Made by a program: the position numbers and the translations under genes. DNA of 64,000 bases from Tranquillimonas alkanivorans. Its GTDB lineage: Bacteria > Pseudomonadota > Alphaproteobacteria > Rhodobacterales > Rhodobacteraceae. This document shows, one piece after another, positions 18,334-27,196 of this stretch. The stretch is from NCBI RefSeq assembly GCF_900115595.1, contig NZ_FOXA01000012.1:62001-126000 (forward strand), written 5' to 3'. The notes below the pieces were generated by a model, which ran no database searches, was not told the DNA's origin, and worked only from the letters and a program-made list of their open reading frames with translations. The stretch's first letter is position 1. The number at the start of each line of letters is the position of its first letter.

Positions 18334-19794
18334 TCAGTTGGCCTGCGTCTCGGGGGTGTCGGGCCCGGTGGTGGTGCCGTCGGTCAGCGCGCCGTTCTCC
18401 CACGTGCCGGTCGCCACCTCGCCGCTGGCATAGCGGATGGTGCCCTCGCCCTGGCGCTTGCCGGCGATGAACTGGCCCTCGTAGATGTCGCCGTTGGCGT
18501 AGGTCGCCACGCCTTCGCCTTCGATCTCGCCATCCGCCCACTGGCCGGAATAGGTGAAGCCGTCGGGCATGGTGATGGTGCCTGCGCCCTCGCGCTGGCC
18601 GTCGGCGAACTCGCCCTCGTAGACGGTGCCGTCCGCATAGGTCGCGGTGCCTTCGCCCTCGCGCTCGCCTTCGACCCACTGGCCCTCGTAGCGGTACCCG
18701 TCGGGATAGGTCATCACGCCGAAGCCGTGGTTCTGCGCGTTCTTGAACTCGCCCTCGTAGACCAGCCCGTTGGCATAGGTGGCCACGCCCTCGCCCTCGA
18801 TCACGCCGTTGGCCCACTGACCTTCATAGGTGCTGCCGTCGGCATAGGTGATCTTGCCGGTGCCGTCGGCCACGTCGTTGCGGAACGAGCCCACGTAGAC
18901 CGAGCCGTCGGGATACCGGGCTTCGCCTTCGCCTTCGATCTGACCGGCGACCCAGCTTCCGGTGTAGGTGTAGCCGTCCGCGCCGGTGAAGGTGCCCTGG
19001 CCCTCGCGCCGGTCGTCCACGAAGGCGCCCTCGTAGACGTCGCCGTTGGCGTAGGTCACCTTGCCCTGGCCGTGCCGTTCGCCGTTGACCAGCTCGCCCA
19101 AGTAGACGTCGCCGTTGGGCTGGGTGAGCGTGCCGGTGCCGTTGATCTGGCCGCCGGCCCACTGGCCCTCGTAGACCAGCCCGTCCGGCATGGTGAGCTT
19201 GCCGTCGCCTTCGCGCTGGCCGCGCACCATGTCGCCTTCGTAGACCGCGCCGTCGGGATAGGTGATCTTGCCCTGTCCCTCTTTCACGCCGTCGACCCAC
19301 TGGCCGTCGTAGACATAGCCGTTGGGGCTTTCCATCCGGCCCAGCCCGTGGTGGCGGGCGTTGCGGAAGCCGCCTTCGTAGCGCACGCCGTTGGCGTAGA
19401 TCGCGACGCCCTGGCCGTTGATCTTGCCGTCTTCCCACTCGCCCTCGAATGTGCCGCCGTCGGCGAAAGTGATCTTGCCGATGCCGCCGGGCTTGCCCTT
19501 GAGGAACTCGCCCTCGTAGACCGAGCCGTTGGGGAAGCGCGCGACGCCCTCGCCGCGGATCTCGCCCTCGACCCAGTCGCCCGAATACTCGTAGCCGTTG
19601 GGCAGGCGGTAGGTGCCGGTGCCGTGCTGCTTGCCGTCCTTGAAGGTGCCCTCGTAGACGCCGCCGTCGTCGTACTGCTTGGTCACGACCGCATCGTCGG
19701 ACTGCGCGGCGGCCGCGCCGGCAAGGGCGAGCGCGGCGGCGCTGCCCAGAAGAAAGGCTTTCGCGGTGGCGAGACTGGCCTTGGAATACTGCAC
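18334..19794 (-). CDS. Secreted MORN-repeat protein (about 18 repeats)
   Basis: A 486-residue protein with a signal peptide (hydrophobic LLGSAAALALAGAAAA, cleavage near AAA-Q) followed by about 18 complete 23-residue MORN repeats (YEGxFxxGxxxGxGxxxxxDG) and a partial one ending at EVATGTWENGALTDG. The repeats fill almost the whole mature chain. MORN proteins form elongated beta-hairpin stacks that bind lipids or other proteins; a periplasmic or outer-surface scaffold role is inferred. GTG at 19792-19794 with AAGGGAG 8 bases upstream is the likely start. It is co-transcribed with the ABM-domain gene. The repeats are diverged in DNA, so they are old. Confidence 0.87.
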   Translation of the reverse strand: MQYSKASLATAKAFLLGSAAALALAGAAAAQSDDAVVTKQYDDGGVYEGTFKDGKQHGTGTYRLPNGYEYSGDWVEGEIRGEGVARFPNGSVYEGEFLKGKPGGIGKITFADGGTFEGEWEDGKINGQGVAIYANGVRYEGGFRNARHHGLGRMESPNGYVYDGQWVDGVKEGQGKITYPDGAVYEGDMVRGQREGDGKLTMPDGLVYEGQWAGGQINGTGTLTQPNGDVYLGELVNGERHGQGKVTYANGDVYEGAFVDDRREGQGTFTGADGYTYTGSWVAGQIEGEGEARYPDGSVYVGSFRNDVADGTGKITYADGSTYEGQWANGVIEGEGVATYANGLVYEGEFKNAQNHGFGVMTYPDGYRYEGQWVEGEREGEGTATYADGTVYEGEFADGQREGAGTITMPDGFTYSGQWADGEIEGEGVATYANGDIYEGQFIAGKRQGEGTIRYASGEVATGTWENGALTDGTTTGPDTPETQAN

Positions 19795-19930
19795 CTGATG
19801 CTCCCTTGCGCGCCGGGCGGCGGTGTCCGGATAATCGGCTGTCAACCTAACCAGCGGGCCGGATCCCCGCAACGCTTTTCCCCCCACGGGAAGATCGCGC
19901 TTCGGTGAGCGGCGGGCGTGGTGCGGGGCT

Positions 19931-20008
19931 GGCGAAAGCGTACAATCGGTACAATGAATGGCCAAAGATGTACGTTTCGCCCCGCCGGCCGGAGGGGACA
20001 GGTCCAGC
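19931..20008. repeat. Three-copy intergenic element, copy 1
   Basis: A 47-base core (19931-19977) begins GGCGAAAGCGTACAATCGGT and ends AAAGATGTACGTTT. A GC-rich inverted repeat follows (CCCC...GGGG around GCCGGC), then GACAGGTCC. Of the three copies this has the most different middle (ATGAATGG). Confidence 0.75.
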
Positions 20009-20040
20009 GCGGAGTGCGGAGCGGTGTCGCAGGGCAGGAC

Positions 20041-20119
20041 GGCGAAAGCGTGCAATCGGTACAGGACGCGCGCAAAGATGTACGTTTCCCTCTGCCCGGC
20101 CGGGAGCGGTCAGGTCCGG
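20041..20119. repeat. Three-copy intergenic element, copy 2
   Basis: The 47-base core (20041-20087) begins GGCGAAAGCGTGCAATCGGT and ends CAAAGATGTACGTTT. It is followed by the palindrome CCCGGCCGGG and then GGTCAGGTCC. The distance from core start to GGTCC is 72 bases, against 70 and 68 in the other copies. Confidence 0.75.
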
Positions 20120-20156
20120 ACCCCGATGACCGGAGCGGCGTCGGCGGGGGCTGCAT

Positions 20157-20190
20157 CGGCGGACGGCAGGCGGACGGCAGGCGGACGGCG
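20157..20190. repeat. Short 11-base tandem repeat
   Basis: The unit GCGGACGGCAG is repeated about 2.7 times head to tail immediately before copy 3 of the intergenic element, whose first bases overlap the last partial unit. This looks like slippage in GC-rich DNA. Confidence 0.6.
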
Positions 20191-20261
20191 AAAGCGTGCA
20201 TTCGGTACGGAGCGCGGCCAAAAATGTACGTTTGGCCGGCGCCGCCGGCGGTCAGGTCCAG
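20187..20261. repeat. Three-copy intergenic element, copy 3
   Basis: The 47-base core (20187-20233) begins GGCGAAAGCGTGCATTCGGT and ends CAAAAATGTACGTTT. A GCCGGCG/CGCCGGC inverted repeat and GGTCAGGTCC follow. The right end runs over the stop codon of the cupin gene (stop complement at 20252-20254), so the element may have arisen by duplication from this 3' end. Confidence 0.75.
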
Positions 20262-27032: not shown

Positions 27033-27042
27033 TAGGGGCATC

Positions 27043-27196
27043 CGCGAGGGGAGAATCCGGGGCGACCCGGTGCCGAAGGAGCAACCGCCCCGGTAAACTC
27101 TCAGGCCAAAGGACCCGCGCGAATCAAAACTCTGGAGAGAGGCGCGTCATGCGTCCGCCGAAGGGATAGCGATCTCAGGCGAAAGGACAGAGGGGG
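27043..27196 (+). ncRNA. Tandem glycine riboswitch
   Basis: Two glycine aptamers in tandem upstream of gcvT. Aptamer 1 (about 27043-27120) contains GGGGAGA, TGCCGAAGGAGCAA and CTCTCAGGCCAAAGGACC. Aptamer 2 (about 27130-27192) contains CTCTGGAGAG, CGCCGAAGGG and ATCTCAGGCGAAAGGACAG, closed by CTCTG (27130-27134) with CAGAG (27188-27192). These are the conserved glycine-aptamer signatures. Glycine binding is expected to switch on the downstream glycine-cleavage genes. No clear terminator stem is visible between aptamer 2 and gcvT, so the control may be translational, as an inference. Confidence 0.92.

Follow-up and report, generated by a model that had tools for sequence, protein, structure and literature searches.

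The window, a 64,000-nucleotide stretch of the genome of Tranquillimonas alkanivorans, carries three copies of an element of 47–50 bp within a single intergenic gap, between a cupin-domain gene and a MORN-repeat protein gene that both lie on the minus strand. This raises the question of what the element is and what it does. The preliminary description had offered a repeated operator, a family of small RNAs or a mobile intergenic repeat; the first and, as a dispersed intergenic repeat, the last of these fit the results described below, while the small RNA family does not. The features of the locus, in window coordinates, are:

18334–19794, minus strand: MORN-repeat protein gene (Pfam PF02493, E = 3.2e-111; GTG start assigned by eye)
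19931–19980, plus strand: element copy 1 (w1), core GGCGAAAGCGTACA...TGTACGTTTCGC, with GTAC at 19940, 19949 and 19970
19981–20010, plus strand: GC-rich inverted repeat and GACAGGTCC tail, 3' of copy 1, assigned to a local duplication
20041–20090, plus strand: element copy 2 (w2), with GTGC at 20050 and GTAC at 20059 and 20080
20091–20119, plus strand: GC-rich inverted repeat and GGTCAGGTCC tail, 3' of copy 2, assigned to a local duplication
20187–20236, plus strand: element copy 3 (w3), with GTGC at 20196 and GTAC at 20205 and 20226
20237–20259, plus strand: GC-rich inverted repeat and GGTCAGGTCC tail, 3' of copy 3, the tail overlapping the cupin stop codon
20252–20779, minus strand: cupin-domain gene (Pfam PF07883, E = 2.6e-6, 27.5 bits vs. 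a cut-off of 27.2; start assigned by eye)

In line with what had been described, the core occurred three times at a constant length of 47 bases and aligned without gaps (19931–19977, 20041–20087 and 20187–20233, all on the plus strand). When copy 1 was compared by BLAST with its own genome, copies 2 and 3 were matched at E = 1.5e-11 and 4.1e-9, respectively, and the exact core pattern gave three forward matches in the 4.54 Mb genome, with none for the reversed control. The flanks and tails of the three copies resemble each other, and an inverted repeat with a tail does follow each core in the window, as previously noted; however, neither belongs to the element, since the CAGGTCC tail was present in three of the twelve copies of the genome, all three in the window, and the nine remaining copies had best downstream stems of 3–6 bp with unlike sequences. 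Inverted repeats and tails were therefore assigned to a local duplication, which may be functionless. The reported overlap of the last copy with the cupin stop codon (20252–20254) concerns the GGTCAGGTCC tail and not the core, which ends at 20233; the 3' end of the cupin-domain gene thus adjoins copy 3. On the other side of the gap, copy 1 lies upstream of the MORN start (placed by eye), at a distance of 136 bp. Both sister genomes carry about 2 kb in the place of positions 19797–20251; this DNA is missing here, and the three elements occupy the gap. In the counterpart of one of them (G002), a long open reading frame resembling NAD synthetase was recognized by eye.

The preliminary description had allowed for the case that no further copies exist. 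This was refuted: the whole genome (G000), when searched with the core, was found to contain twelve copies at ten places, mostly between genes. The nine copies outside the window (contig and position: C39:58014, C80:38622, C38:20228, C38:62949, C38:321964, C38:591259, C49:35371, C70:92847 and C90:130335) are spread over six contigs and have only the core in common. All twelve align without gaps across 50 columns and were recovered at E <= 9.1e-8 by a twelve-copy model (R2), in whose training set all of them were included; the fair E-values for the six newer copies are therefore those of a six-copy model (R1) on which they had not been trained, namely 6.7e-7, 3.0e-5, 4.7e-4, 0.0037, 0.009 and 0.10. 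The last value belongs to C38d, the least certain copy, and both C38c and C38d look decayed. The copies have near-inverted ends (GAAAnCGTAC...GTACGTTTC) and occur in either orientation relative to their neighbor genes, some of them between convergent genes. Their places include the 3' end of der, which faces a convergent gene, and the bchY/bchZ and era/DUF1491 gaps.

The C90 copy (L057, G000:C90, 1985–2034) is situated inside a frame that by eye resembles mmsB or a 3-hydroxyisobutyrate dehydrogenase gene and aligns without gaps to G002, which leaves chance likeness or a copy built into coding sequence. Two other dispersed repeats were encountered beside element copies or their neighbors. One of about 66 bp (AAATATCCCGGGGGTGAAT...) is very abundant and was seen just 3' of the DUF1491-like gene (L062, G000:C38); G000 and G002 gave at least 40 matches each, nearly all of them to this repeat, and G001 gave one. 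Another, of about 85 bp, lies beside the element copy in L054 (G000:C49); the search listed 23 other places in G000, and the sister genomes had none.

Comparison of the twelve copies revealed that their constant part consists of three GTRC/GTAC tetramers whose spacing is fixed at 9 and 21 bp. Unit 1 (GTRC) reads GTAC in five copies and GTGC in five, and is decayed in two, while units 2 and 3 are GTAC in 11 and in all 12 copies, respectively. The mean top frequency was 0.94 in the twelve columns of these units vs. 0.71 in the other core columns, a value reached by 4 of 100,000 random draws of twelve columns, and identity between copies outside the GTAC columns averaged 55%. A role of GTAC in methylation or as an avoided motif was considered and rejected, its depletion in the window being mild (76 observed vs. 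100 expected). As a separate observation, CTAG is strongly depleted in the window (5 observed vs. 52 expected).

Selection on RNA structure, as proposed earlier from the inverted repeats, was not borne out. When six copies were folded as RNA, the folds differed, and one of them, C39, clearly beat its shuffled versions, folding better than 199 of 200; copy 1 is also able to form a long hairpin. In the covariance analysis of the hairpins, RNAalifold predicted five pairs from the twelve-copy alignment, with no compensatory changes. A similar picture emerged from 84 distinct GTGCAC arrays of relatives (described below), where pairing exceeded expectation by more than 0.05 in 3 of the 17 listed column couplings, with a maximum of 0.14, and the remaining listed couplings were near or below expectation; clear base-pair coupling was absent in these figures, which cover the columns other than the GTGCAC units, as the latter are invariant in the 84 arrays. 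At the gathering score, the Rfam matches in the window were limited to three tRNAs and one glycine riboswitch, with nothing at the element; the riboswitch aptamer lies at 27038–27126 (62.4 bits). An RNA family was thus rejected as being without support from Rfam, folding or column coupling. Given the differing folds and the lack of compensatory pairs, the target of selection seems to be DNA sites and not RNA structure, and the occurrence of copies in both sense and antisense orientation makes the element ill-suited to a role at the transcript level.

Beyond its own genome, where other Rhodobacteraceae had been suggested as the place to look, the element was not found in any other genome searched. 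Model R1, run over 60 relatives with strict filters that weak copies could escape, gave no match better than E = 0.037; matches with E-values of 0.037–0.9 were obtained in 15 of the 60, and the 13 stretches inspected from these relatives look like chance. Likewise, no match was detected in 84,980 species genomes, the own genome excluded, with a pattern that fits six of the twelve own copies and that distant forms could escape. A phage- or plasmid-borne element was also rejected, as plasmids and phages gave only matches of 24–31 bases and viral contigs none to the element pattern. At the era/DUF1491 gap, both other genomes of the genus are without the element, and the gap measures 9 and 11 bp there vs. 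49 bp here (starts placed by eye); the copy was therefore either inserted, with some 40 bp, or lost in both others.

Many Rhodobacteraceae contain dispersed arrays of a different kind, in which (C)GTGCAC recurs with an 11-bp period. Over 81 genomes, the pattern GTGCACN5GTGCAC gave 57 forward matches in G002, 34 in G020, 15 in G064 and one each in four more genomes, with none in the other 74, T. alkanivorans included; the reversed control did not exceed two per genome. A looser GTNNAC triple had at least four matches in 7 of 149 genomes of the family and none in T. alkanivorans, and as its reversed control gave 12, 10, 5 and 3 matches in four other genomes, G061, G021, G154 and G165, a few matches are not always meaningful. 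The control matches in G061 and G021 are CANNTG units at 11-bp steps, perhaps another type of repeat or array. In G128, GTACAC is mixed with GTGCAC, and the units are therefore direct repeats of (C)GTRCAC followed by four or five free bases. The consensus of the 84 distinct arrays is about GGGGGTGAYATGC-GTGCAC-N4C-GTGCAC-N4C-GTGCAC-CGCC. By the definition of this class (at least three GTGCAC/GTRCAC units at an 11-bp period), the copies in T. alkanivorans fall outside it, having GTRC/GTAC units at 9 and 21 bp.

In the 84,980 species genomes, the GTGCAC triple occurred in at least 120 stretches. Among the 120 listed, 96 were from Rhodobacteraceae, by an assignment of genera to the family that we in part presume, nine came from one metagenome-assembled genome (MAG) and 15 from others, as judged by title. 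This MAG, labelled Flavobacteriia AQU-04, contains Roseobacter-like arrays (L187, L223, L234, L237, L239, L252, L279, L285 and L295); L237 has proteins that are 100% identical to those of L227 from Roseobacter AQU-03, which is probably due to contamination or mislabelling. Twelve loci from outside the Rhodobacteraceae were left out, by title, of the coupling and border comparisons and of a classification of gene context by codon usage, which omitted six AQU-04 loci as well and was discarded as unreliable because it picked many antisense frames. Three such loci (L266, L277 and L286) and a few duplicates, e.g., L225/L360, remained among the 170 loci of the border comparison. Arrays of different genera were also seen to recur beside one gltD-like gene (in Lentibacter, Histidinibacterium, G107 and G128; L183, L225/L360, L355 and L384), at leuC/leuD and rpoA/rplQ, and beside prfC; these and other gene names given without a Pfam or profile test were read from the sequences by eye.

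Some copies of the element occupy the same gene borders as GTGCAC arrays of other genomes. T. alkanivorans has element copies at the borders of der and of bchY/bchZ; in their place, G002, from the same genus, has 11-bp-period GTGCAC arrays with four and two perfect units, respectively. Directly upstream of a chorismate mutase gene, a copy in T. alkanivorans has its counterpart in arrays of five others (Leisingera ANG-M7, L233; Paracoccus CSMAG_1157, L262; uncultured Roseobacter 34-3Z, L282; G107, L348; and G128, L382). On closer look, copy C80b was found between lepA and an entericidin-like gene, like an array of Tranquillimonas rosea (L292).

The genes at the ten places were then compared with those at 170 array loci, a border being counted as shared when similar genes lay within 130 bp of both sites. 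By this fixed criterion, three of the ten places share a border vs. 1 of 25 controls (Fisher's exact test, one-sided, 0.06), the lone passing control being a 48%-identical paralogue; the other seven places, the window's own included, were without a shared border. Addition of the lepA–entericidin border raises the count to four of ten (0.017), with no such closer look given to the controls. When any similar gene within 1.5 kb was accepted, the proportions were 9/10 vs. 8/25 (0.0025). The test was designed when two of the three matches had already been noticed, and 19 of the 25 controls came from other genomes, some of them from other families, which favors the shared-border reading; near matches also occurred among the controls, e.g., L038 and L042 at 74–76% identity.

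In four relatives' loci (L201, L203, L217 and L231), the array precedes a small gene whose product matches Pfam PF14384 (BrnA antitoxin). BrnA has a ribbon-helix-helix fold. A profile made from these four proteins retrieved nine distinct loci from the sequences fetched, i.e., the four used for training and five new ones (L295; L351 in G107; L358 in G064; L366 in G020; and L378 in G128); in each, an array precedes the start codon, and PF14384 was above cut-off in all nine; as the loci were chosen by their arrays, this adjacency comes without an unbiased background. The distance from the array end to the brnA start codon was 69–83 bp in eight loci and 187 bp in L203. Among the array places fetched, one was BrnA-bearing in each of G107 (of 10), G064 (of 8), G020 (of 16) and G128 (of 9), and the profile found none in G002 (13), G099 (4) and G104 (2); for G002, G020, G107 and G128, the fetched places represent part of all arrays. 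Inspection by eye recognized no BrnT or other toxin gene beside the brnA-type genes, and the profile search detected no BrnA-type gene within about 2 kb of the twelve copies in T. alkanivorans. The order in L231 (Ascidiaceihabitans) is lepA, brnA, array and hydrolase gene, and C80b is likewise flanked by lepA and a hydrolase gene. An 87-aa protein encoded directly behind C80b looked by eye like a Phd/YefM antitoxin; this candidate was discarded, as its score to YefM was reached by 697 of 2000 shuffles and it matched no Pfam family and no NCBIfam or PHROG model naming Phd/YefM.

Directly 3' of the brnA-type gene of L366 (G020), at 2120–2611, a gene for a REP-associated tyrosine transposase was observed (NF047646, 1e-51). 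Pfam PF01797 misses this gene (17.9 bits vs. a cut-off of 23), and it is with this insensitive model that no IS200-type transposase was found in T. alkanivorans when 34 genomes were searched; Y1_Tnp matches were obtained in two of the 34, G009 and G128.

Several known systems resemble the element in part. REP/REPIN elements, with their REP-associated transposase, and MITEs are short dispersed repeats, REP sequences having a conserved imperfect hairpin. The element is likewise short, dispersed, mostly intergenic, present in both orientations, seen in one species only and near-inverted at its ends. Unlike them, it conserves units and not a hairpin, the REP-type hairpin being absent given the different folds of six copies and the lack of compensatory pairs in twelve; some of its borders are common between genera, and the insensitive PF01797 search identified no transposase in the genome. 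The sites parS and matS and those of SlmA and Noc are short protein sites dispersed around the chromosome, which the dozen to some tens of sites seen here recall; however, element and arrays are sporadic between genera, their motif changes between species and another protein family is implicated. BrnT/BrnA operators come to mind because the relatives' arrays lie upstream of Pfam BrnA_antitoxin genes, and the review PMC5086665 describes BrnA as the antitoxin of a pair whose BrnAT complex binds and represses its own promoter. In contrast to that pair, inspection by eye recognized no toxin gene next to the brnA-type genes, the majority of arrays lie scattered at a distance from the gene, and none of the copies in T. 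alkanivorans was found to adjoin a BrnA gene. The operator of Escherichia coli YefM-YoeB, as presented in PMC4803016 and PMC3920265, contains a pair of palindromes that have TGTACA cores, lie 12 bp from center to center and are bound cooperatively. The regularly arrayed GTAC cores of the element are reminiscent of it, whereas the spacing of 9 and 21 bp, the dispersal of the copies and the lack of a confirmed YefM-family protein are not.

The explanation that we consider best, and to which the sequence data lead us to give about an even chance, is that the copies are operators arranged in tandem for a small repressor of the antitoxin type, that they have a motif of their own in this species, and that they are a version of the GTGCAC-N5 arrays. 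The element of about 47 bp would be a tandem array of predicted binding sites for a small dimeric repressor of this type, which would contact the GTRC/GTAC units; with distances of 9, 21 and 30 bp, these lie roughly on the same side of the double helix. The twelve arrays of T. alkanivorans would then represent a species-specific version of those scattered in Rhodobacteraceae genomes, where one array may serve a lone BrnA-type gene as its operator and others sit at gene borders, some recurring between genera. Such dispersed sites could act in local repression or as roadblocks, in titration of the repressor or in nucleoid organization. From the observed copies, their spacing and GTAC conservation, some shared borders and the BrnA genes behind arrays in relatives, we infer binding, autorepression and a common lineage of GTAC and GTGCAC arrays; the shared borders suggest that GTGCAC units with an 11-bp period gave way to GTAC units spaced by 9 and 21 bp.

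Against the array reading stand the absence of a BrnA-type gene within about 2 kb of the copies, the seven places that share no border, the differing geometry, i.e., a pair of direct units at 9 bp followed by a third after 21 bp vs. a constant 11 bp, the location of arrays in convergent and operon-internal gaps, which is unusual for operators, and the C90 copy inside the mmsB-like reading frame. We kept our estimate despite the weak border statistic, since it already allows for the missing binder and since the chorismate mutase border and the conserved units count as much. That a lone domesticated antitoxin-type repressor has its arrays at recurring borders across the family, and that the motif of the whole set switched in concert in single species, appears possible at somewhat below an even chance; equally tentative are the motif 'dialects' that this would imply, namely GTGCAC in most genomes, a mixture with GTACAC in G128 and GTAC here.

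The main rival to operator arrays is mobility as the sole reason for the copies, a reading that we consider rather unlikely: a small non-autonomous MITE- or REP-like repeat would have copied itself into intergenic gaps without any host function, its GTAC units being needed by the mobilizing enzyme. It would account for the absence of matches in other species searched, the smaller era/DUF1491 gap of both sister species, by some 40 bp, the near-inverted ends, the location in tight gaps in either orientation and the decayed look of some copies, and the REP-associated transposase gene behind one brnA gene of G020 points the same way. However, the GTAC units are conserved against an average identity of 55% in the remainder, and some borders are common to arrays of other genera. 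Further, no target-site duplication was seen by eye at the junctions inspected, searches of the own genome gave no full-length element with such ends, and PF01797 found no IS200-type transposase in it, a weak point as the model misses the G020 gene.

Ordinary local operators, by which the window copies would regulate the MORN or the cupin gene and single copies their own neighbors, have a still smaller probability in our view: the distance of 136 bp between copy 1 and the MORN start (by eye) and the grouping of three copies in one gap suit them, but other copies lie between convergent genes (der) or in tight gaps (bchY/bchZ, era/DUF1491), and no common gene theme is visible. That the copies are small structured RNAs or elements of 3' untranslated regions is highly improbable, as the C39 fold and the possible long hairpin of copy 1 are set against copy-specific folds, the lack of compensatory pairs, mixed orientation relative to transcription and the absence of an Rfam family at the place. 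Lowest of all stands a functionless local duplication in the window, consistent with the alike tails and flanks of the three copies and refuted for the core by nine more copies on six contigs that share the core only.

If the operator-array reading is true, the Rhodobacteraceae would possess a widespread and apparently undescribed site system, of which we found no description in the open-access full-text literature, with a BrnA-type protein that has no recognized toxin and operator arrays far from its gene. The system would then offer a natural experiment on the joint change of motif in a DNA-binding protein and all of its sites, and the question would arise of what role an antitoxin lacking a toxin plays when it binds chromosome-wide.
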